Positions 1 to 7,490 of a stretch of DNA of 7,490 nt are shown piece by piece. The notes under the pieces are model-generated. The model made no database searches and was not told the DNA's origin. It saw nothing but the letters and a program-made list of their open reading frames with translations. Positions within the stretch are counted from its first letter, which is position 1. Each line of letters begins with the position of its first letter. Source of the stretch: Deltaproteobacteria bacterium (GTDB lineage: Bacteria; Desulfobacterota; BSN033; UBA1163); contig VGSD01000140.1 of NCBI GenBank assembly GCA_016875155.1, positions 1-7,490 on the forward strand, in the 5' to 3' direction. The position numbers and the translations under genes are program-made.

Positions 1-99
1 GATCAGAACACGCGGATCTCTCGATTCAACCCTGATCCGATAATCCCGTCCCTCCACTTCACCGTTTTCAAGCTCGTTAAAATTGGTATAAGAAATCAT
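1..99 (-). CDS. Poly-gamma-glutamate hydrolase-like protein, N-terminal fragment
   Basis: The minus strand from an ATG at 99 stays open to the window edge and gives 33 residues: MISYTNFNELENGEVEGRDY, then RIRVESRDPRVLI. The pattern Y-x-NF-x-EL, then E-G-x-DY-R-I-x-V, then R-x-x-x-V-L-I matches, from memory, the start of the phage-type poly-gamma-glutamate hydrolase family (DUF867/PF05908). In that family an APHGG-type zinc-binding motif comes next; here that would lie beyond the window. Members cut the gamma-linked glutamate polymer that some bacteria use as capsule, and many are carried by phages. An in-frame stop lies upstream, so the start must be at or near 99; GTG at 102 is the alternative, and neither has a clear Shine-Dalgarno sequence. 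The gene begins about 40 bp beyond repeat R1 and would be the next unit of the array. The family call rests on a short stretch and is tentative. Confidence 0.55.
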   Translation of the reverse strand, partial: MISYTNFNELENGEVEGRDYRIRVESRDPRVLI

Positions 100-139: not shown

Positions 140-189
140 AATGAGGGTCAGGTCAATTTTCTTAGCATTAACCTTTCCCACCAAATTCA
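140..189 (-). repeat. Dispersed array repeat, copy R1
   Basis: This copy contains CTTAGCATTAACCTTTCCCA, aligning to the core CTTAGCGTTCACCTTTCC found in R2-R4 and, with changes, in R5 and R6. It lies between the nuclease gene stop (359) and the start of the hydrolase-like gene (99). The right-hand half seen in R2 and R6 is replaced here by a different motif at 212-235. It is assigned to the minus strand because all neighbouring genes read that way. Confidence 0.8.
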
Positions 190-211
190 GCCAACGATTG
201 CTTTTAGGCGA

Positions 212-235
212 AATGTCCCATGTCAAGGGCTGATC
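212..235 (-). repeat. Second repeat motif, copy a (inverted relative to 3943-3966)
   Basis: The reverse complement, containing TCAGCCCTTGACATGGGACA, matches 3943-3966 on the plus strand at 21 of 24 positions by hand count. It lies just beyond R1 in the gap between the hydrolase-like and nuclease genes. The form resembles extragenic repeats mobilised by REP-associated transposases, but no such transposase is in the window, so the class is a guess. Nothing else recognisable was seen in 236-358. Confidence 0.6.
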
Positions 236-358
236 ACTTTCTGCGAAGCCCCATTAAATTTTCTGAAGATGACTGAACGTATTCTCTGAATGCGCCATCA
301 ACACCTCACTCTGCGTTCCTATTTATGAAACTTTCAGGCTCATCTATAATATCTATAT

Positions 359-1324
359 CTACTTGCAAACGAGAAGCTCTGTGAACGGAACTAGGACACG
401 TCCTTCCTCTGCCAATAACCTTTGTCGTTGACGAAGATAATATGTAAGTTCCATATTATCCTCCAAAAGCATTGTGACATCGTAACCATCCATGATAAAG
501 AAACTTGGCTGTTTGCCCTGAGTAATAGCAACAGAGGCCTCCTTGCTAATACCGTTTATGGCAATAAAAACCCCTCGAGTATATTTCGACTTGCCTTCGA
601 TCTTGCCTCTGAAAACTAAGAGGTCAGATTCGGGACACGGATCTTGACACCATTTTGCTTCAAGCAGATAGATTTCATGGTCTAACTCAAACGAACCATC
701 AATCTGCTCCCCAGTGACCTTGAAGGATTCGCGAGGTGCCAGACTATTTAATTCGAACAAACGGTTTAAAACCTTCTCCAGACCAAACCCTGCCCTCTGG
801 CGGTCGTCATCTTCATGTAATGCGAAGAACTGGCGCTTTAATTCTTCGAGTTCGTGACTGCGTTGGGACCGTTTCGTAGCACGCAGCTTTTCTTCACCTA
901 ATGCCCTTTCCACGTGCTCTCTGGCCCGGACGCTAGCATTCGCCTGCAAAGAGGCCTTAAAATCGGCGTCCCAGAGGTCAGGGAACTTAAACCCAAGTTC
1001 AAGAATGAGACCATTGAGTTTATCTATTTCTTCCGGCTTCACAGAACTACCTTGCTTTTGACGATAGGTGAGACCAGCTCTAACTGTTTCTAATAAGAGT
1101 GGCTCAAAGCGCCCCCGACGAAATTCAAGTGTTCGTGCCAGTAGTGCAGTTATCATCGGGATTTTGCTTCCAGGTTGCCAGAAGTCGCCAACGCCTATTT
1201 TCTCGGCGACCGTTTTGAAAGAAACATGCCCTTTCCACTGCGGATTACCAGACCCAGGAAGGAAATCGTATAGCAATTCTGCCATCTCAGCAATTGTTCG
1301 GGATTCCTTGAGCGAAAGTGCCAC
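359..1324 (-). CDS. PD-(D/E)xK (Mrr-like) restriction endonuclease-fold protein
   Basis: This is a 321-residue protein predicted to cut DNA or RNA through a PD-(D/E)xK nuclease fold in its C-terminal half. The signature is visible: a helix GFGLEKVLNRLFELN (179-193) with an acidic residue E183, then QIDGSF with D209, then LLEAKW with E222 and K224, followed by a beta strand GVFIAING (251-258). The N-terminal ~150 residues are not recognised; a charged, helical, probably coiled stretch (about 133-178) links the two parts. The start is GTG at 1324, chosen because GGAG (1331-1334, read on the minus strand) lies 6 nt upstream; the stop is TAG. It is a single-gene unit between repeats R1 and R2. 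No methyltransferase or helicase is adjacent, so it is not a classical restriction-modification system. A stand-alone defence or Mrr-like modification-dependent nuclease is plausible but unproven. The fold call is fairly firm; the target is unknown. Confidence 0.75.
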   Translation of the reverse strand: MALSLKESRTIAEMAELLYDFLPGSGNPQWKGHVSFKTVAEKIGVGDFWQPGSKIPMITALLARTLEFRRGRFEPLLLETVRAGLTYRQKQGSSVKPEEIDKLNGLILELGFKFPDLWDADFKASLQANASVRAREHVERALGEEKLRATKRSQRSHELEELKRQFFALHEDDDRQRAGFGLEKVLNRLFELNSLAPRESFKVTGEQIDGSFELDHEIYLLEAKWCQDPCPESDLLVFRGKIEGKSKYTRGVFIAINGISKEASVAITQGKQPSFFIMDGYDVTMLLEDNMELTYYLRQRQRLLAEEGRVLVPFTELLVCK

Positions 1325-1407
1325 TTCTCACTCCATTGTCCATTGGTAATGCAAGCAGGTCTATGTTGTTAGGCTGAAGCTCCATAGCCCGGTCGAATAT
1401 AAAGAGT

Positions 1408-1493
1408 AATGAGGATCAATTCCGTTTTCTTAGCGTTCACCTTTTCCATCCAATTCCCTCAATATTGAGGGCTTGATCCTGCATTCGTTTCAC
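1408..1493 (-). repeat. Dispersed array repeat, copy R2 (full length)
   Basis: This is the best-structured copy. It has the core TTTTCTTAGCGTTCACCTTT, then a perfect 16-bp palindrome CCCTCAATATTGAGGG (1456-1471), all enclosed by AGGATCAA (1412-1419) and its exact inverse TTGATCCT (1473-1480). From 1421 to 1493 it matches R6 (3990-4062) without gaps at about 55 of 73 positions by hand count, so the unit is at least 73 bp, not just the core. It sits between the stop of the 186-residue gene (1587) and the start of the nuclease gene (1324). Confidence 0.85.
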
Positions 1494-1586
1494 ACTTCAA
1501 TAAAACCTTCTGTCATATTTGAAGGCCAGGCACCAATTATACCTTCCTCAAAAATATGCCAAAATACAAGGTCTGACCTCAATCCG

Positions 1587-2147
1587 TTAAATATTTTTGA
1601 TTTCCAAACTATCAAATTTGCCTGCAGTGTATTCTACGATGAATTCTTTCTCAACATCCTCTGCATTGTCACCTTTAACCCTAATTTTGATTTTATATTC
1701 ACCTGGCGGGAAATCTGTCTGATTGCCACTTGGGTATTTTTCAGTAAAAAAATGTAAAGTGTCATATCCTTGATGAACGTAGCAGACATCTAATCGCCTA
1801 GGAACATCGGTCTCAATGTCTTTTGGAGAAAAATCTTTCTCATGAGCCCACTTTAACCTCATTATATTTCTATACCCTTGGGCATTTTGAAATTTATTAT
1901 TCTCCATTACCTCAATGCTTCTTAATTCTCCTATAGAATTCTTTGCTGTATTTTTGCCATTATTCCTCACCATAACATGAGCAAATTTTCCTATTATACC
2001 GTTAAAGCTCATATCTCTTGCTTTATGATAGGTTTCGTTGGGATCATAATAAATATCGAGTTGGGGTCGATTAAAGTGGTTGATCAGTATTTTAATCAGA
2101 TTAACGGGGTTTAAAACCCCCAAGATTGTTGAAATCATTTCTATCAT
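1587..2147 (-). CDS. Hypothetical protein with hydrophobic N-terminus, 186 aa
   Basis: I do not recognise the family. Residues 1-25 (MIEMISTILGVLNPVNLIKI and on) are hydrophobic and could be a membrane anchor or amphipathic helix. The rest is strand-rich: KFAHVMVRNNGKNTAKN (54-70) and, near the C-terminus, PPGEYKIKIRVKGDN (137-151) followed by KEFIVEY have the alternating pattern of an immunoglobulin-like beta sandwich. ATG at 2147 is used; a second ATG at 2138 is possible, and neither has a good Shine-Dalgarno sequence. The DNA is clearly richer in A+T than kdsB or the transposase (near 30% G+C in places), which suggests a separate origin. It is a single-gene unit between R2 and R3. A GGGG...CCCC inverted repeat (about 2106-2120) falls near the start of the coding region and could fold in the mRNA. 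Function unknown. Confidence 0.7.
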   Translation of the reverse strand: MIEMISTILGVLNPVNLIKILINHFNRPQLDIYYDPNETYHKARDMSFNGIIGKFAHVMVRNNGKNTAKNSIGELRSIEVMENNKFQNAQGYRNIMRLKWAHEKDFSPKDIETDVPRRLDVCYVHQGYDTLHFFTEKYPSGNQTDFPPGEYKIKIRVKGDNAEDVEKEFIVEYTAGKFDSLEIKNI

Positions 2148-2232
2148 ATTTTTGCTTTAATTAAACCAAAGGCTTCAGACCTTGAAATGCGAATTAAGCT
2201 TCTTATTTCAATTGTCGAGGCCTCACATCCAT

Positions 2233-2282
2233 AATGTAAGTCAAGTCTATTTTCTTAGCGTTCACCTTTCCTGCCAAATTCC
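2233..2282 (-). repeat. Dispersed array repeat, copy R3
   Basis: This copy contains TTTTCTTAGCGTTCACCTTT, identical to R2 over this stretch apart from flanking bases, followed by CCAAATTCC. The right half has mostly diverged, although GCTCCTGCATT near 2305 recalls the right end of R2. It lies between the stop of the 185-residue gene (2382) and the start of the 186-residue gene (2147). Confidence 0.85.
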
Positions 2283-2381
2283 GGGCGGTCACTAATAACA
2301 AGCTCCTGCATTGGGACTAAAGAAATCTGTCGATAGTGTGCACCTGACATCACAGCCTTACCCATCTGCCTGCAAACCGTA

Positions 2382-2939
2382 TTAGATGTCTTCTTCTTCC
2401 AAGTAAATCCAATCGATGTCAGGTGGTTCCACTGAGTTAATTGTGTACTGAATTTTCCTGCGGGTCGTATGAGTACCCTTTCCCGGAACACCATGGTACT
2501 CGACCGTGTATTCCGCGTTTCCACTTTTGGGGAACGAGGAGATGTCTACGTTTTGAATAACCCCATACCAAAACACCGTTGTATCATTTGGATAGATGGG
2601 GCCTCCCATTCGTTCGAAATGGGGGTTATTTATTGTGGTTCCAGAGAAGGTTACTCGGATCGATTTGACTTGGTAATGCACAAGCACCTTGCCGGGGTTT
2701 CCGAATATCAGTCCTACTTTTAGATGCCCTTTTGTGGGATGGGGCGCGTCTTTATCAGACTTTTCGACAAGGAATTTGAATATAAAGCTCTTAAACCCAA
2801 AATAAGCCCGGCTTTCGAGATCGAATGCCTTCTTTGTTATAGAAGCCATGCGCCAAGTTGCAAACGCGAGCCACACAGTTGCAATTGCCAATACAAATGT
2901 AAAAACCGCTAAAACCGTATTTATAATATTCGCATTCAT
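2382..2939 (-). CDS. Hypothetical single-pass membrane protein, 185 aa
   Basis: The family is not recognised. Residues 5-28 (IINTVLAVFTFVLAIATVWL and on) form one clear transmembrane helix. It is followed by basic residues R30, K36 and K37, so the N-terminus probably faces outward and the bulk stays in the cytoplasm by the positive-inside rule. The remaining ~150 residues look like a beta-rich domain, for example HLKVGLIFGNPGKVLVHYQV (72-91) and NAEYTVEYHG (131-140), with an acidic tail EEEDI. Start ATG at 2939 has a weak AGGG about 5 nt upstream. It is a single-gene unit between R3 and R4. Architecture (N-terminal hydrophobic helix plus a beta-rich domain with an 'N-x-GK' turn) recalls its neighbour at 1587-2147, though I see no alignable sequence similarity. 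Function unknown. Confidence 0.75.
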   Translation of the reverse strand: MNANIINTVLAVFTFVLAIATVWLAFATWRMASITKKAFDLESRAYFGFKSFIFKFLVEKSDKDAPHPTKGHLKVGLIFGNPGKVLVHYQVKSIRVTFSGTTINNPHFERMGGPIYPNDTTVFWYGVIQNVDISSFPKSGNAEYTVEYHGVPGKGTHTTRRKIQYTINSVEPPDIDWIYLEEEDI

Positions 2940-2977
2940 TGAGTCCCTAAACTAAAGATACGGGGCACGGGTCAGAT

Positions 2978-3027
2978 ATGGGGATCAAGTCCATTTTCTT
3001 AGCGTTCACCTCTTTCACCGGATTCCT
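2978..3027 (-). repeat. Dispersed array repeat, copy R4
   Basis: This copy contains CCATTTTCTTAGCGTTCACC and then diverges. It comes within 17 bp of the stop codon of the antitoxin gene (3044), closer than any other copy is to its upstream gene. The usual right half of the repeat is absent. A 10-bp palindrome GGCTTAAGCC (3041-3050) spans the antitoxin stop codon. Confidence 0.8.
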
Positions 3028-3043
3028 CATATTCACTTTGGGC

Positions 3044-3370
3044 TTAAGCCGCCTTCTTCATCCCTTGTTTTCTATAAAAATCGTTTCTTTTCTTCTGAGC
3101 TTTTGGGGTAACCTGAAGGCTAACCTCGCCTCCTGCAGCCCTTACTAAACGCACCATTGAATCAAGGGTAAAATTGACATTGCCACGAAGCACCTTGGTA
3201 ACATAAGCAGGGCTGACTCCAAGGCGACGTGCAAGCTCGCTCCTTGAGACTCCGTTTACCTCCATCATTCTATGAAGCCCCTCTGTAAAATCGAGGATGA
3301 GAGAGGCAACCCAATAAGTATCCCGTTCCTTTGCCTGATCGAATAACTCTCTAAAGGATTTTTTCTTCAT
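3044..3370 (-). CDS. higA: HigA-type antitoxin, XRE-family helix-turn-helix
   Basis: This 108-residue protein should neutralise the toxin encoded just upstream and repress their shared promoter. An XRE/Cro helix-turn-helix spans about residues 31-83: SRSELARRLGVSPAYVTKVL holds helices 2 and 3, with SPAYVTKVLRG (53-63) as the likely recognition helix, followed by NFTLDSMVRLVRAAGGEV typical of HigA-like antitoxins. The tail is basic (KKRNDFYRKQGMKKAA) and may be flexible. The ATG directly abuts the toxin stop (TAA then ATG, zero gap), with AAGGTG inside the end of the toxin gene as ribosome site, so translation is probably coupled. Gene order toxin-first is that of higBA rather than relBE. Family assignment is firm; the in vivo partner is inferred from position. 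Confidence 0.88.
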   Translation of the reverse strand: MKKKSFRELFDQAKERDTYWVASLILDFTEGLHRMMEVNGVSRSELARRLGVSPAYVTKVLRGNVNFTLDSMVRLVRAAGGEVSLQVTPKAQKKRNDFYRKQGMKKAA

Positions 3371-3775
3371 TTAGACACCTTCTTCCCCGTATATCTGTAT
3401 TTGTGCCTTTTTCTTCTTCTCAAAATAGGCGTCCATCAGTTGAATCGCATGGTCAATCTCACGCCGAGGGGTTTTTTGCCCTTTCTTAACAAAACCACTT
3501 GTACAAATAATCAGCCTTCCTTCGTCATAGAACCAGAAAACCCTTAACCTCCCCTGAATGAATTCAAATAATTTCCCCTTAATTTGATGGGAAATCTCCG
3601 TGATCCTCGGTGGCCCTTCAATGGCTACCCTTTCTAAAAGGGCCAGTATCCGATCAGAATCTTTTTGAAGGGTTTGGCCAAGTCCTCCGAGAAATTCAAG
3701 CAGCTCACAATATTCTCTGCTCTTCGCTATGGCATAAACAGTATAGAGACCTTTAGAGATGAGTTGTAAATCCAT
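3371..3775 (-). CDS. higB: HigB-type toxin (RelE superfamily, phage Gp49-like)
   Basis: This 134-residue protein belongs to the RelE/HigB superfamily of ribosome-dependent mRNA endonucleases. The Gp49-like (PF05973) pattern is clear: GKLFEFIQGRLRVFWFYDEG (67-86) matches the 'LWELR...YRV.YF' strands, and TSGFVKKGQKTPRREIDHAI (92-111) is the diagnostic 'GF-x-KK-x-x-x-TP-x-x-E-I-x-x-A' block with its basic residues. The N-terminus is longer than in many members (about 35 residues before the first conserved helix), and the C-terminus is lysine-rich (EKKKKAQ). The gene is intact and in frame, so it could be active. ATG at 3775 is preceded directly by an 18-bp palindrome, leaving only a weak TAGG as ribosome site. 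It forms a two-gene operon with the antitoxin, between repeats R4 and R5. Confidence 0.85.
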   Translation of the reverse strand: MDLQLISKGLYTVYAIAKSREYCELLEFLGGLGQTLQKDSDRILALLERVAIEGPPRITEISHQIKGKLFEFIQGRLRVFWFYDEGRLIICTSGFVKKGQKTPRREIDHAIQLMDAYFEKKKKAQIQIYGEEGV

Positions 3776-3793
3776 TTTAACCTATAGGTTAAA
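3776..3793 (-). promoter_or_regulatory. Perfect 18-bp palindrome, likely toxin-antitoxin operator
   Basis: TTTAACCTATAGGTTAAA is a perfect palindrome touching the toxin start codon. The AACCT/AGGTT half-sites resemble operators bound by HTH antitoxins of HigA/MqsA type. A TTGACT (3796-3801, read on the minus strand) lies just upstream and could be a -35 box, but I see no -10 at the right spacing. Binding here would block transcription and might also mask the ribosome site. The role is inferred from position and symmetry. Confidence 0.6.
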
Positions 3794-3831
3794 TAAGTCA
3801 AGCAAACTATTTGGCCCCTTTTTGTTTAGGC

Positions 3832-3882
3832 CATGAAAGCCAACTCTATCCTCTTAGCGACCACCTTCTCCAACAAATTTCA
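3832..3882 (-). repeat. Dispersed array repeat, copy R5 (degenerate)
   Basis: This copy contains CTCTTAGCGACCACCTTCTC, followed by CAACAAATTTC, aligning to the core with several substitutions. It lies about 57 bp from the toxin start. It is the most diverged copy, but order and spacing of the conserved blocks agree with the others. Confidence 0.65.
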
Positions 3883-3942
3883 AAAAAAGGACTGGATGAC
3901 GAAGTGCCGAAATGCTCCAATCTACCCAAATGGGGGAAATGG

Positions 3943-3966
3943 GGTCAGCCTTTGACACGGGACATT
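3943..3966 (+). repeat. Second repeat motif, copy b
   Basis: GGTCAGCCTTTGACACGGGA followed by CATT matches the reverse complement of 212-235 at 21 of 24 positions. The two copies lie in opposite orientation near the two ends of the array region, one next to R1 and one next to R6. Confidence 0.6.
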
Positions 3967-3975
3967 ATCCATGTT

Positions 3976-4062
3976 TGTAATTGACTAAATCTATTTTCGT
4001 AGCGTTCACCTTTCCCGATAAATTCCGCCAATATCGAAGGCCTGATCCTTTGTTCGCTTCAG
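3976..4062 (-). repeat. Dispersed array repeat, copy R6 (full length)
   Basis: This copy contains CTATTTTCGTAGCGTTCACC, then CCAATATCGAAGG and CCTGATCCT. From 3990 to 4062 it aligns with R2 without gaps at about 55 of 73 positions. Only 145 bp separate its core from that of R5 and no gene lies between them, unlike all other neighbouring copies. It is the copy nearest to kdsB and marks the edge of the array. Confidence 0.82.
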
Positions 4063-4098
4063 ATATTTTTAGAAAGATAGAGGACTTTAAAGGGAAGC

Positions 4099-4135
4099 GC
4101 TCTAAGAGGATAAACCAATCCCCCTTAGAGCTTTT
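4099..4135 (+). terminator. Hairpin with T-run, terminator-like
   Basis: GCTCTAAG (4099-4106) pairs perfectly with CTTAGAGC (4124-4131), with a further GGAT/ATCC pairing inside and a loop of about six bases, followed by TTTT. No plus-strand gene lies upstream, so it may be a relic, or it may shield the array from kdsB transcription. The T-run is short. Confidence 0.35.
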
Positions 4136-4434
4136 GTAGGGGCATCTTTTGAAAACCCTTTCTCATCTTTCCCCCTGAAAGGTCTGAGAGAAATTTCCAA
4201 AGGCAGGGACATTTCGAAAATTGATAGTTTATTTAGCAAATTCTTTGCCAAATGTCTATTGTTTTGTTGGGTCTCATAATCAATCGAAATCATACGGTAT
4301 TTTATTTATTATAAATTCTCCATACGCAGAAATTTGGACTCTAGGGTGTAATCAATTTAATAATTGTCAACTATTGTTTACAACCGGAACTTCTCACCGA
4401 AAAACCAAAGAAAACACACCAAAGAAAACGAAGA

Positions 4435-4463
4435 TTGACAGTCCTCCCTGAATCTGATTTAAT
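4435..4463 (+). promoter_or_regulatory. Strong sigma-70-type promoter for kdsB
   Basis: A consensus -35 box TTGACA (4435-4440) is followed after exactly 17 bp by TTTAAT (4458-4463), one base off the -10 consensus. A TG at 4455-4456 gives the extended -10 form. The A-rich stretch 4401-4434 could act as an UP element. The expected transcription start is 4469-4471, at the kdsB start codon. The TTG inside the -35 box is in frame with kdsB but is not a sensible start. Confidence 0.75.
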
Positions 4464-4470
4464 GTTATCG

Positions 4471-5238
4471 ATGAAGATCACTGCCATTATTCCTGCGCGG
4501 TATGGTTCGACACGATTCGAGGGAAAACCCCTTGTTGATATCCTCGGCAAGCCGATGATCCAAAGGGTCTACGAAGGGGTGCAGCAATCGAAATTGATAG
4601 AGGAAGTCATCGTCGCCACCGATGACCAGAGAATTCTGGAAGCCGTTCAGGGATTTGGAGGGAGAGTGGTGCTGACGTCGGCGGATCATCCCACAGGCAC
4701 CGACCGGGTGGCGGAGGTGGCACGAAAACTGAAGTCCGAGATTATTGTCAATGTCCAGGGAGATGAACCTCTTATCAAAGGAACGATCATTGACAAGGCC
4801 ATCCGACCCCTCTTAAAAGATGAAACCCTTCAGATGTCCTCTTTGATGACAAGGATCAAAGACATAAAGGACTGGTTGAATCCCAATCAGGGAAAGGTGG
4901 TGGTGGATGGAAAGGGTTTTGCTCTTTATTTTTCAAGGTCACCCATTCCATTTCCAAGGGATCTCACCATCGAGCAGATCCTGTCCAATCCTGAAATGAA
5001 AGGGAAACTCTTATCCAAAAAACTTTTTAAGACCATCGGTCTCTATGTCTATCGCCGGGACTTTCTGTTAAAACTTGCAAAGATGAAACCGACTCCGCTG
5101 GAAAAACTGGAAAAATTGGAACAGCTCCGCGTTCTGGAAAATGGTTATAAGATCAAAGTGGTTCCTGTGGATTACGAACCCATTGGCGTGGACATCCCCT
5201 CAGATCTTCAGAAGGTCATCGCCTCCCTCACCCAATAA
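4471..5238 (+). CDS. kdsB: 3-deoxy-manno-octulosonate cytidylyltransferase
   Basis: KdsB couples Kdo to CMP from CTP in the cytoplasm, activating it for transfer to lipid A in lipopolysaccharide synthesis. The 255-residue product has normal family length and motifs: [16 protein letters not shown] (6-21, nucleotide loop), ATDD (49-52), HPTGTDR (73-79), NVQGDEPL (94-101, with metal-binding D98), [14 protein letters not shown] (151-164), IGLYVYRR (189-196), LEKLEQLR (213-220) and GVDIPSDL (239-246). The position before IGLYVYR is T188, where most KdsB proteins have His. ATG at 4471 ([10 protein letters not shown]) is chosen because it matches family N-termini; upstream in-frame codons fall inside the promoter. 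There is no Shine-Dalgarno sequence, and the mRNA is probably leaderless. The gene is complete, and an IS begins 4 bp after its stop, so genes once downstream may have been separated from it. Confidence 0.95.
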
Positions 5239-5242
5239 CGGG

Positions 5243-5283
5243 GGTAGTGTCAATTGTTTTGTGTCAGCAAAAGAAATGGAGTA
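5243..5283 (+). repeat. Left terminal inverted repeat of the IS
   Basis: The outer part ends in TTTTGTGTCAG and is followed after one base by AAAAGAAATGGAGTA. It pairs with the inverse of 6481-6534. It overlaps the last codons and stop of the transposase gene. Confidence 0.65.
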
Positions 5284-6434
5284 GCTGACCGTTGTTTAAG
5301 ATTTTCGTAAGTAAAGACCGAAAACAGGATTCGTTCCATACTCGTTCGATCACTAAAGGTTCCCATCGGTCGGGTTCTTCTTCGTACCTCCACGAATCGT
5401 CGTTCAATTGCATTGGTGGTGCGTATGACCGATGGAGCCAGTTGTGTTTTGATTTGAAGGAAACTGAGCAGTTCGGGTAAATCTTTTTGGAGGCAATCAA
5501 CAGCTTTGGGATAGTTTAGTGTCCAACGGGCGACAAATCGCTGAGCGGCTCTTTGAGCTTCCCGGAGGTTTCGGGCATGACTGATGCGATGCAGGGACCG
5601 TTTGACTCTGTCTTGGTCCGCCCGTTTAACATAATTGAGGACGTTTCGACTTTTATGGGTCCAACACCGCTGCATGGGCACATGGCCATAAACCAGAGGC
5701 AGAGCAGCCAGAAGCCCTTTGCCTCCATCGACGACGATGAGCTTAAGGGCACGTCCTTCAAGGCCCCGATGGTGCAGGTCATTCAAGAACCCTTCCCAGG
5801 CCGATTGCGACTCTCCCGTAGCCTGGCGAAAATCGATAATCTCTTTCTTTCCATCGGGTTTGATCCCCAGGGCGACCAACATGGTCCGTCTCTGAGCTCC
5901 CACGCCTGTCTTACGCCTCATGACGATACCATCCAGAACGAGGATCTCATACTGCTCAGACAGAGCCCGTTGATGATAGGCCTGGACCGATTGATCCAAT
6001 TGTTTGGCAATGTGACTGACCGTAGAGGGGCTAATCGGTTCGCCCAGGATGGAGAGCAGGGCCGGTCCGACTTTGCGGGTGGAAAGCCCCAACAGGAAGG
6101 CCATCAGGATCGTTCGCTCGATGGAAGCGCTCCGACGGGCGAAGCGTCTCAGAAGGACGTGGGCGCTGAAGGTGCGAGTTCGGGGGATCTGAAGCTCCAG
6201 ATCCCCAACTTCCGTCAACAGATGAGACGAAAACGAGCCATTTCGACGATCCGCCAGACCCGCCACTCTCATCTGCTCAAGGTGGATATCGATGCTGTTA
6301 TGCATTCGGGTCTCGATCACTTCCTTCATGGCCCGACGAGCGGCGAGACGACATTCTTCCTGCCAGGTGTCAATCGCCATATGCTTGATCTCTTTAAAAG
6401 CTTGGTGTATGTTTGTAATCGCTGCCGGCAGCAT
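5250..6434 (-). CDS. IS256-family (mutator-like) transposase
   Basis: The 394-residue DDE transposase catalyses movement of the surrounding IS. The catalytic triad is visible: D168 in ILVLDGIVMRR, D236 in LIVVDGGKGLLAALP, and E344 in RTTNAIERRFVEVRRRTRPM, the diagnostic IS256 C-terminal block. CWTHKSRNVLNYV (257-269) contains the conserved C-x2-H before the helical insertion domain. Length is typical of the family. The start is ATG at 6434 because AGGAGG (6441-6446, read on the minus strand) lies 6 nt upstream; the frame is open back to 6536, but that extension is the inverted-repeat end. No frameshift or internal stop is seen, so it is probably active. It reads towards kdsB, opposite to it. 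Confidence 0.95.
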   Translation of the reverse strand: MLPAAITNIHQAFKEIKHMAIDTWQEECRLAARRAMKEVIETRMHNSIDIHLEQMRVAGLADRRNGSFSSHLLTEVGDLELQIPRTRTFSAHVLLRRFARRSASIERTILMAFLLGLSTRKVGPALLSILGEPISPSTVSHIAKQLDQSVQAYHQRALSEQYEILVLDGIVMRRKTGVGAQRRTMLVALGIKPDGKKEIIDFRQATGESQSAWEGFLNDLHHRGLEGRALKLIVVDGGKGLLAALPLVYGHVPMQRCWTHKSRNVLNYVKRADQDRVKRSLHRISHARNLREAQRAAQRFVARWTLNYPKAVDCLQKDLPELLSFLQIKTQLAPSVIRTTNAIERRFVEVRRRTRPMGTFSDRTSMERILFSVFTYENLKQRSATPFLLLTQNN

Positions 6435-6480
6435 GGGGTACCTCCTATCGGTTGTTCTTGACGTGAATGACTTGATAACG

Positions 6481-6534
6481 TACCCCATTTCTTTTTCTCT
6501 AACCAGGAACCTGACACACAAATGATATACCACC
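6481..6534 (-). repeat. Right terminal inverted repeat of the IS
   Basis: The inverse starts GGTGGTATATCATTTGTGTG and contains AAAAGAAATGGGGTA at the inner side. It carries about 13 more bases between the two matching blocks than the left end does. Confidence 0.65.
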
Positions 6535-6638
6535 ATTAGCCCCTTTCTCTACAAAAGGAATCGAAGTTGTGGTAAGATAAGATACGTACGGATCCATTAC
6601 ACCACTTAACTCTTTTGTTGAAAGGGAAAGGAGAAGAT

Positions 6639-6977
6639 ATGGAATATCTACCGATTTCTTATGAACGTTTCAGAAAAGAGTTTCCTGAGATCGAGAAGGC
6701 CTATGAAAAGCTCGCCAACCTCTGTCATGCCTCTGGCCCTCTCGATGAGAAGATGCGAAGGCTGATTAAATTAGGAATTGCCATTGGCTCCGAGTCTCAG
6801 GGGGCTATCAAGTCCCATACCCGTAGAGCAATCGACTTGGGAATCTCTCCGGAGGAGATTTATCACGTCCTTCTCCTAAGCCTGACGACGATTGGCTTTC
6901 CCAAGATGATCGCCGCATTGAACTGGATCAACGAAGCTTTTGAGGAGGGGCCAACAAAACATTTCAGCGGCGATTGA
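6639..6977 (+). CDS. Carboxymuconolactone decarboxylase / AhpD-like family protein
   Basis: This 112-residue helical protein belongs to the CMD/AhpD superfamily. The core is clear: LDEKMRRLIKLGIAIGSESQ (35-54), then GAIKSHTRRAIDLGISPEEI (55-74) and YHVLLLSLTTIGFPKMIAAL (75-94), close to the PF02627 pattern. The peroxidase-type C-x2-C-x3-H of AhpD is missing: counting back from H60, the cysteine positions are S53 and A56. So it should not act as a thiol peroxidase reductase, and a decarboxylase or unknown role is more likely. The start is ATG at 6639 with AAAGGAG (6627-6633) 5 nt upstream; an earlier in-frame TTG at 6615 is rejected because it would precede this ribosome site. It is a stand-alone gene about 100 bp beyond the IS, convergent with the ATPase gene. 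The real substrate cannot be told from sequence. Confidence 0.85.
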   Translation: MEYLPISYERFRKEFPEIEKAYEKLANLCHASGPLDEKMRRLIKLGIAIGSESQGAIKSHTRRAIDLGISPEEIYHVLLLSLTTIGFPKMIAALNWINEAFEEGPTKHFSGD

Positions 6978-7170
6978 TCACATCGCTTTCCCTTATCACC
7001 CTTAGCATTGGGATAATCGGAGTGAGCGTATTCGTTGACGCAACCAGAGCGCATTCTGATTGATATCTCTGGAAAGACCCGGGGCCATCACAAAAGTCGC
7101 TTTTAGGCTTCGTTTTTTATTAGGCCGTGAGGGAAATTTATTCTCTTTTCCTTAATCCCTGTGGCACAAC

Positions 7171-7185
7171 CATGAGGTACTCATG
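7171..7185. repeat. Short inverted repeat between convergent genes
   Basis: CATGAGGTACTCATG has 6-bp perfectly pairing arms around three bases. It lies in the 230-bp gap between the CMD-family gene and the ATPase gene. There is no T-run, so a terminator is not supported. Nothing else recognisable was found in 6978-7207. Confidence 0.3.
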
Positions 7186-7207
7186 CACAAACCTTTTCCT
7201 CCCTTAG

Positions 7208-7490
7208 TTAAGCTGGAATCCTCCTGCCCACCATCATCCTCTTTCTCAGGATCACTTTTGTGACTTCAATAATCACAAAGATAAGCAGTCCAAAGCCAAT
7301 GATAATGGCCATGTCGGAGACCGAAGGTTTCATGATACCAAACGCCTCACGGACAGACGGAATCTGGATGAGCACCGCAATCATTACGATTTCCCAGGCG
7401 AGAGCCAGAATCAGCCATTTATGGGGAGGGGCTTTGAAGATGCTATAAACCAGGGAGCGGCAGTTCAGGGCGACGACCAGCTCGATAATA
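7208..7490 (-). CDS. Cation-transporting P-type ATPase (type II, Ca2+-like), C-terminal fragment
   Basis: The minus strand from the window edge to a TAA at 7208 gives the last 93 residues of a P-type ATPase, an ion pump in the cytoplasmic membrane. The visible part is the C-terminal transmembrane bundle (Cation_ATPase_C): ELVVALNCRSLVYSIFKAPP (3-22), with the typical 'E..ALN-x-RS...S-x-F' pattern, then transmembrane helices at about 25-44 (WLILALAWEIVMIAVLIQIP) and 60-77 (MAIIIGFGLLIFVIIEVT), a connecting IPSVREAFGIMKPS loop, and a basic tail KVILRKRMMVGRRIPA. This tail pattern is that of type II pumps of the calcium/SERCA-PMR1 group. The ion cannot be settled, because the ion-binding helices M4-M6 and the phosphorylation site lie outside the window. 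The gene continues beyond 7490. Confidence 0.85.
   Translation of the reverse strand, partial: IIELVVALNCRSLVYSIFKAPPHKWLILALAWEIVMIAVLIQIPSVREAFGIMKPSVSDMAIIIGFGLLIFVIIEVTKVILRKRMMVGRRIPA

Follow-up and report, generated by a model that had tools for sequence, protein, structure and literature searches.

Co-oriented, repeat-separated gene arrays beside a kdsB-like gene in one deltaproteobacterial order: a possible integron-like cassette platform with sites not recognisable as attC

The window analyzed here, a whole stretch of 7,490 nucleotides, contains one repeat family whose copies separate genes and gene pairs in a single orientation. We read this arrangement, with a probability of roughly 45%, as a chromosomal cassette platform that is integron-like and uses a separate family of sites that cannot be recognised as attC. 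The initial annotation had likened the region to an integron cassette array, and that likeness holds because the repeat occurs almost exclusively in arrays, because the repeats and most open reading frames (ORFs) are co-oriented, and because units recur elsewhere. Active site-specific recombination, however, is unsupported, since three of seven informative unit ends lie off the repeat 3' end, some homology ends off repeats, only 12 of 24 inter-repeat intervals hold exactly one ORF of at least 90 aa, and no recombinase was identified.

The window carries six direct copies of 51 nt, which start at 138, 1406, 2231, 2975, 3830, and 3975 and show 63 to 82% identity to the reference copy. An HMM built from these copies (R1 to R6) matches relatives down to an E value of 2.9e-22, which places the family beyond chance. 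Core coordinates were taken from an 82-position core model (Table 1). R1, R4, and R5 match this model only from position 21 to 28, and their 5' ends are therefore extrapolated. The 5' half of R4 is not repeat-like and is common to the antitoxin flanks of relatives; its extrapolated core overlaps the end of the antitoxin gene by 14 bp. The full 5' part is present within the window in R2 only, where it reaches about position 1539. The distance from core end to the next gene start equals 84 bp for R2, 86 bp for R3, 38 bp for R4, and 57 bp for R5, and about 41 bp separate R1 from the ATG at 99 (read off the sequence). The preceding stop lies 138, 101, and 69 bp from the core start of R1, R2, and R3, respectively, and R6 lies 47 bp past the 63-aa ORF. 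These values come close to the ranges first reported, 39 to 86 bp from repeat to gene and 17 to 170 bp from stop to repeat. An Rfam scan of the window, with E values up to 1, matched nothing. A putative short-ORF reading of the repeat was also noticed.

Table 1. Repeats and genes of the window, with the basis of each assignment
Feature	Position	Strand	Basis or remark
Repeat R1 core	140..221	-	core model; 5' end extrapolated
Repeat R2	1408..1539	-	core 1408-1486 + 5' module
Repeat R3 core	2233..2313	-	core model
Repeat R4 core	2977..3058	-	core model; 5' end extrapolated, 5' half not repeat-like
Repeat R5 core	3832..3913	-	core model; 5' end extrapolated
Repeat R6 core	3977..4055	-	core model
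Poly-gamma-glutamate hydrolase-like gene start, cut by window edge	1..99	-	homologous to L038:4680-5258
Mrr-like restriction nuclease gene, 321 aa	359..1324	-	PF04471, 21.6 bits (cut-off 21)
186-aa protein of unknown function	1587..2147	-	no Pfam family above its cut-off
185-aa protein of unknown function	2382..2939	-	no Pfam match, E up to 1
HTH antitoxin-like gene	3044..3370	-	PF13560, PF01381 and others; relatives in L037, L071
Gp49-like toxin gene	3371..3775	-	PF05973, E 3.6e-16
Unit with 63-aa ORF (4102-4293)	4094..4378	-	also in G008:C17, G001:C7
kdsB-like cytidylyltransferase gene	4465..5238	+	PF02348, E 9.5e-61; chromosomal anchor of array

As first described, the six copies lie on the same strand between units, but the 64-bp interval between R6 and R5 holds no gene. 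The units listed at that stage (a hydrolase-like gene, a nuclease, two hypothetical genes, and a toxin-antitoxin pair) were incomplete. A further unit, for which Pfam gave no match, lies to the right of R6 and recurs in two relatives (75.9% over 286 bp in G008:C17 and 78.5% over 288 bp in G001:C7). The hydrolase assignment is backed by the homologue in a relative (PF05908, E value of 1.4e-55), although the window itself contains only a fragment at its edge. Toxin-antitoxin and nuclease cargo is usual for cassettes according to the section of PMC8618304 that deals with it. The name kdsB for the anchoring gene, a housekeeping gene, is our reading.

The repeat is present in six of 17 genomes examined from one deltaproteobacterial order. 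A search of 395 genomes sampled across the phylum gave six hits, all of them in that same order. Across ten array loci, every repeat (34/34) and 52 of the 58 ORFs agree with the array strand, and all repeats remain co-oriented (32/32) when only the eight loci holding at least two copies are counted. The search of related genomes proposed in the initial annotation found copies nearly confined to arrays, and a scatter of the repeat through genomes was rejected on the basis of this confinement and the one-strand orientation. That annotation had also offered insertion of repeats between genes by a mobile system. Such a mobile repeat (a REP, a MITE, or an insertion-sequence end) would suit the solitary or partial copies in G008:C133, G013, and G010, as well as the tyrosine-integrase N-terminal fragment (PF13495) that abuts one copy in G016. 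It is nevertheless highly improbable: orientation is uniform in every array counted, all 12 matches of the 5' module fall on array contigs, no inverted repeat is reported at copy ends, and units travel with their own repeat in two cases. A plasmid collection returned nothing for positions 4080 to 7490 (megablast) or for R2 (blastn). Viral contigs gave a single 18-mer match, set aside as it lies in a 1430-bp contig without repeat context, and three of the eight matching stretches in genome contigs (L003, L005, and L009), also without repeat context, were dropped as chance.

Inspection by eye revealed a promoter-like leader motif in five array loci, followed in G008 by a half-repeat. An integron has attI with promoter Pc adjacent to its first cassette, and this leader may be a counterpart. 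Neither the window nor G001:C44 showed the motif. An aminotransferase immediately precedes kdsB in G009 and G011, and these two kdsB loci show the empty site. Against the reading as a cassette platform, besides these two loci without a visible leader motif, G015 has the hydrolase gene next to kdsB with no repeat detected there, and long repeat-free stretches occur in the loci of G001:C44 and G006.

Several gene units are found again elsewhere beside other neighbors, and four informative unit ends coincide with a repeat 3' end, the position expected for attC. For an antitoxin unit (G003 and G006) and an Ada-like unit (G003 and G016), the gene, its 3' flank, and the whole repeat are common to both genomes, followed by an abrupt break at the repeat 3' end. 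For the hydrolase (window and G003) and a Phd-like unit (G002 and the G001 leader), the common part starts at a repeat 3' end. In addition, the kdsB array of G008 and the G001:C7 array have one unit in common (90 to 93%), and repeat conservation drops to about 0.1 bit immediately past ATT. Other junctions speak against the cassette platform: three ends, of the Phd-like, hydrolase, and G008/G001:C7 units, stop at or before the core 5' edge, some homology ends inside units or away from repeats, and a nucleotidyltransferase gene common to G003 and G013 ends away from repeats. Short matches of 131 to 274 bp between cassettes and intI loci, among the matches listed, were taken for dispersed repeats.

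Breaks inside repeats or near the core 5' edge would fit a hot spot for accessory genes that has no recombinase of its own, in which the repeat serves as a regulatory or structural spacer and homologous recombination swaps units. So would a repeat that stays near-identical behind two distinct genes (0.90 in one half, 0.98 in the other), a further point against the cassette platform, along with array contigs free of PF00589 or PF00239 matches and the whole multi-gene stretches that the locus also holds. We consider this explanation unlikely, as in two units the gene, its flank, and the entire repeat stay together up to a break at the repeat 3' end, and conservation stops sharply at ATT. Moreover, mean repeat identity between genomes is 68%, which is poor material for homologous recombination, and a hot spot alone leaves the first acquisition of the repeat by unrelated genes unexplained.

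The repeats were compared with attC sites using a home-made model derived from the order's own integrons. This model identifies 35 sites, 10 of which are its training sites, at nine of 16 intI or remnant loci. It finds none in the window and matches no repeat copy; across 15 array sources, it yields one marginal match (E value of 0.33), located in the G001:C7 array at its argC end, and no second site even at an E value of 1. An R-box finder reported two hits in arrays, compared to 0 to 3 in shuffles. These results bear out the earlier view that the repeats differ from canonical attC sites (RYYYAAC...GTTRRRY). Conversely, scanning the intI loci with the repeat model gave no match. The usual repeat core is AAT/ATT rather than AAC/GTT, with GTT in a few copies of G001:C7 and G003, and canonical attC sites are present elsewhere in G003 and G008.

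When folded with RNA parameters, the repeat consensus forms a hairpin with AATG/CATT ends (z of -3.1), and single copies average a z of -0.3. Folding with DNA parameters gives the consensus a z of -0.02 on one strand and -0.21 on the other, in contrast to two attC controls, which range from -2.8 to -5.0 across both strands; R2 of the window scores -1.8. No covariation beyond shuffles was detected in the repeat. Pairing was found in 74% of cells versus 33 to 47% when slid, which is expected because the structure was taken from the consensus. An attC-type palindrome was not supported, with arm swapping at p 0.47 (22 copies) and p 0.106 (16 copies) and mixed folding. Because the attC model is near-silent on the arrays and their contigs in six genomes have no PF00589 or PF00239 recombinase, the array is not a recognisable integron. 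A CALIN, as delimited in the relevant lines of PMC9024848, has two or more attC sites by covariance model and no integrase near; the 15 array sources yielded no such set of sites.

It is unlikely that the array is a decayed ordinary integron of the CALIN type, its repeats being drifted attC sites and its integrase lost or located elsewhere. Integron integrases abound in the order (TIGR02249 above cut-off in 9 of 17 genomes), and the RNA-parameter hairpin, the score of R2, and the marginal argC-end match are in keeping with such an origin. So are intI loss and off-target insertion, the CALIN origins proposed in the part of PMC8618304 on this subject. The near-zero DNA-parameter z of the consensus, unlike the attC controls, argues otherwise, as do the lack of covariation and of site-specific arm pairing, the mutual silence of the two models, the canonical attC kept elsewhere by G003 and G008, and the usual core, despite the few GTT copies.

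On the array contigs of the six genomes (all drafts), neither PF00589 nor PF00239 found a match. This extends the first observation that no integrase lies nearby. No serine recombinase was detected at an E value of 1e-5 in the six genomes, while 10 of 14 control genomes were positive. Among array genomes, TIGR02249 occurs only in G008, on contigs other than the array's (all drafts). The rarity of intI in array genomes (1/6 versus 8/11, Fisher p 0.0498) was not used, as the draft state of the genomes makes this test too weak. In our grouping, the six array genomes appear to have no tyrosine recombinases in common other than Xer-like proteins. Cassette building independent of integrons, by a dedicated system with asymmetric double-stranded sites, a conserved 3' half of ~45 nt, and platforms beside kdsB/rpsI, is unlikely. 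Its enzyme would perhaps be Xer acting in trans, and it would coexist with ordinary integrons in some genomes of one order.

In the favored integron-like platform, a unit would comprise a gene, a toxin-antitoxin pair, or no gene, together with an ~80- to 130-nt repeat downstream. Units would be joined at the repeat 3' end (...GACTTGACCC.A|TT...). The attC crossover takes place at G|TT, to which this joining place would correspond. New units may have been added next to the leader with its promoter-like motif beside kdsB, and would read away from kdsB. A site-specific recombinase presumably made the array and may since have been lost or act in trans. The array is probably now mostly in decay.

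An array of cassettes is commonly read as the signature of an integron integrase. The arrays described here follow the same logic in several genomes of one order from a little-known bacterial group, with sites unseen by the attC model, and attC-based surveys would therefore miss both the arrays and the toxin-antitoxin and nuclease genes they carry. A separate recombinase behind these arrays would mean that cassette collecting had more than one origin; as decayed integrons, they would illustrate the fate of arrays after integrase loss.

Among known systems, REP and MITE elements are likewise short, non-coding repeat families between genes, whereas the present repeat is co-oriented, near-confined to arrays, and has no terminal inverted repeats reported. 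The dif/pdif modules moved by XerC/XerD offer another parallel, in that related sites flank small modules, which often carry toxin-antitoxin genes, and the recombinase is encoded elsewhere; Xer-like proteins also seem common to all six array genomes. However, pdif sites are short, with neighboring sites in opposite orientations, unlike the ~80- to 130-nt, direct (34/34), and apparently chromosomal array sites. Like an integron, the array is a one-way tandem of small unrelated genes, each with a related downstream site, carries toxin-antitoxin cargo and ORF-less units, and sits at a constant chromosomal position with a leader that resembles a promoter in five loci; in two clean cases, against three other unit ends, the site accompanies the gene that precedes it. 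It differs from an integron in that its contigs have no integrase, its repeats are invisible to an attC model of the same order, its core is AAT/ATT without a stable single-strand DNA fold, and canonical attC sites coexist elsewhere in array genomes G003 and G008.

Six copies of one repeat family (R1 to R6) lie in the window in a single orientation, as the initial annotation had claimed; all are on the minus strand. Read along the minus strand, the array comprises a 63-aa ORF, R6, an empty 64-bp interval, R5, a toxin and antitoxin, R4, a 185-aa protein, R3, a 186-aa protein, R2, an Mrr-like protein, R1, and a poly-gamma-glutamate hydrolase-like gene. To the right of the array are the divergent kdsB gene, genes for a Mutator-family transposase (PF00872) and a carboxymuconolactone decarboxylase-family protein, and the end of a gene for a cation ATPase. 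The transposase is part of a Mutator/IS256-type element lying between kdsB and the decarboxylase-family gene.

Repeat copies and the Mutator/IS256-type element in the window
Feature	Positions	Length (nt)	Description
R1	138-188	51	repeat copy, minus strand
R2	1406-1456	51	repeat copy, minus strand
R3	2231-2281	51	repeat copy, minus strand
R4	2975-3025	51	repeat copy, minus strand
R5	3830-3880	51	repeat copy, minus strand
R6	3975-4025	51	repeat copy, minus strand
Mutator/IS256-type element	5247-6536		PF00872 transposase
First terminal inverted repeat	5247-5283		imperfect
Second terminal inverted repeat	6481-6517		imperfect

In gene orientation, the full repeat unit measures about 130 nt and consists of a 5' module, starting GGTGCCTGGCCTTGAAATTTGACAG, and a core, GAATGCAGGATCAGG...GGAATTTGGTGGAAAAGGTGAACGCTAAGAAAATAGACTTGACCC.CATTA. 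Conservation is greatest in the 3' half; information content is ~1 bit at columns 92-93 (the AT of ATT), 0.4 at columns 94-95, and 0.02-0.23 from column 96. The 5' module has 12 matches in 5 of the 17 genomes of the order (G001 to G017; contigs are given as C numbers). The core is present on those contigs on the same strand, and at least 2 of the 12 matches (G001:C148 2825 and G001:C7 40446) are not followed by a recognisable core. Mean repeat identity is no higher within genomes (0.645) than between them (0.678), and partial copies are many, so an old, shared, decaying site family fits the repeat better than uniformity maintained by an active enzyme.

The exact 18-mer TTTTCTTAGCGTTCACCT matched eight stretches in a species-level genome collection, five of them in repeat context, from three MAGs titled Deltaproteobacteria or Syntrophaceae. 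A 37-mer search allowing up to 3 mismatches places the repeat in 6 of the order's 17 genomes. Of 23 genomes in the class, eight match a 22-copy sequence model, G010 and G013 weakly or in part, and all eight belong to the order. A phylum sample, scanned under stricter filters than the class, gave matches in 6 of 395 genomes, again all in the order, with G002 absent among the matches listed. Of the 12 pattern matches in G001, 11 lie on one strand, and eight of the 12 fall inside 13 kb of a single contig.

Across ten array loci, two of which hold one repeat each, all 34 repeats lie on the strand of their own array, as do 52 of the 58 ORFs with at least 90 aa; G008 supplies three of the six ORFs on the opposite strand, and copies in G016:C29, G008:C133, G003:C10, G010, and G013 stand outside this count. 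The 24 between-repeat intervals contain no ORF of at least 90 aa (5 intervals), one (12), two (4), three (2), or four (1).

In the window, G001 (C44 and C148), G003:C19, G006, G008:C17, and G016:C177, the array lies 5' of kdsB and diverges from that gene. An aminotransferase gene stands at the far array end in G001:C44, G002:C175, and G003:C22, and such a gene lies 1.9 kb from a repeat copy in G008:C133. The aminotransferase gene immediately precedes kdsB in G009 and G011, forming an empty site; in G017 the two are separated by 4.6 kb with no repeat. A second array occupies 25.6-41.5 kb of G001:C7, between argC and rpsI/rplM (names from our reading of the translations). A dispersed element of ~280 bp, partly its own inverted repeat, occurs in the extracted locus stretches L033 (4524-4802), L032 (G001:C7:42766-43044), and L085 (9416-9688); the neighbours of its copies are an array, rplM, and an integron-integrase (intI) gene.

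Five kdsB loci (G001:C148, G003, G006, G008, and G016) have in common a promoter-like leader (TTGACAACACAAAAT and variants) that faces the array. Inspection by eye did not show this motif in eight array-free kdsB loci, the window, or G001:C44. A large gene directly follows the leader in G006; in G008 it is followed by a half-repeat (L072 4896-4930), which resembles the attI site of integrons in position only.

Several gene units recur between genomes. A Phd-like antitoxin unit is shared by G001:C148 and G002:C175 (94.7% over 1127 bp), an alpha/beta hydrolase unit by G001:C148 and G003:C22 (94.8% over 979 bp), and an Ada-like Zn-binding unit by G003 and G016. The window antitoxin is also found in G003 (89.6%, 364 bp) and G006 (88.5%, 355 bp), and the start of the window hydrolase in G003 (85.4%, 192 bp including the repeat). 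The 63-aa unit is present in the window, G008, and G001:C7 (76-78%), and the G001:C7 array also carries a unit found in the kdsB array of G008 (89.6% over 856 bp plus 93.2% over 280 bp). The chromosomal genes are somewhat less alike than these units, with aminotransferase identities of 82.5% (G001:C44/G003), 84.0% (G001:C44/G002), and 89.8% (G002/G003) and a kdsB identity of 90.0% (G001:C148/G003). This hints at transfer, with the caveat that the G001 bin may be mixed, since this MAG contains two different kdsB genes. These share ~76% DNA identity (G001:C44:19533, L034/L074; G001:C148:4891, L033) and may be paralogues or reflect a mixed bin.

Integron-like movement would keep each repeat with its upstream gene, and homology would stop at the repeat's 3' end. 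Four junctions have this form, and three do not. The antitoxin unit of G003 and G006 is shared through ...AAAATAGACTT, and the Ada-like unit of G003 and G016 through ...TGACCCCAAT, each with unlike DNA beyond; the shared part starts at the 3' end of a repeat for the hydrolase start (window and G003) and for the Phd-like unit (G002 and the G001 leader). The Phd-like, alpha/beta hydrolase, and G008/G001:C7 units differ: where they end downstream, homology fades at or before the 5' edge of the core. Further observations run counter to integron-like movement: one repeat is nearly identical behind two different genes, R4's modelled 5' half overlaps the flank of the window antitoxin, and relatives of this antitoxin start inside the toxin-antitoxin unit. 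Likewise, in G015 the alpha/beta hydrolase gene neighbours kdsB with no repeat present, and a nucleotidyltransferase gene of G003 and G013 has its ends away from repeats. Both 3'-end joining and exchange within repeats thus seem to have happened.

Array contigs of the six array genomes gave no match to PF00589 (E 1e-5), and the six genomes gave none to PF00239; as these are drafts, both absences are weak evidence. The tyrosine recombinases common to all six are seemingly two Xer-like groups only (our grouping). A repeat copy in G016:C29 abuts an N-terminal piece of an integrase (PF13495, E 4.7e-13; L073:1884-2159). In the full-text literature, no title or abstract opening among the matches listed describes such an array, and the listed papers combining kdsB, integron, and cassette have titles on other subjects.

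Integron integrases (TIGR02249, above cut-off) are encoded in 9 of the 17 genomes, and attC sites of the GCCTAAC...GTTAGGC kind adjoin some of these intI genes. Ordinary chromosomal integrons with canonical attC occur in the same order (L075, L077, L078, L079, L080, L082, L085, L086, and L090). Canonical attC sites are present elsewhere in G003 and G008; close to those of G003 is what looks like a broken intI, two integrase fragments in different pieces (L075:6708-7075) that are 45-56% identical to one of the order's IntI proteins. A covariance model built from 10 attC of the intI loci found 35 sites at E up to 0.1, the 10 training sites included, and these fall at 9 of 16 intI or intI-remnant loci. 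It found none in the window, in agreement with the earlier view that the repeats are not canonical attC. Across 15 array sources, scanned without loci L035, L039, L074, L127, and L129, it gave one marginal match (E 0.33; G001:C7 24510-24576). The G001:C7 array has this borderline site (L031:8510-8576), with ACCTAAC/GTTAGGC-type ends, at its far end close to argC. Conversely, the repeat model had no match at the 16 intI or intI-remnant loci.

With RNA parameters, the repeat consensus folds with z of -3.1 on the gene strand and -1.2 on the other, and single copies have a mean z of -0.3. DNA parameters give -0.02 and -0.21 for the consensus and -1.8 and -1.7 for R2, compared with -2.8 to -5.0 for two attC controls. 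The repeat family has no covariation beyond that of shuffles, and no site-specific arm pairing was found. Based on the attC-model, folding, covariation, and arm-pairing results, the array is not filed as an integron or as a CALIN (an attC cluster without an integrase nearby), though it works like one.
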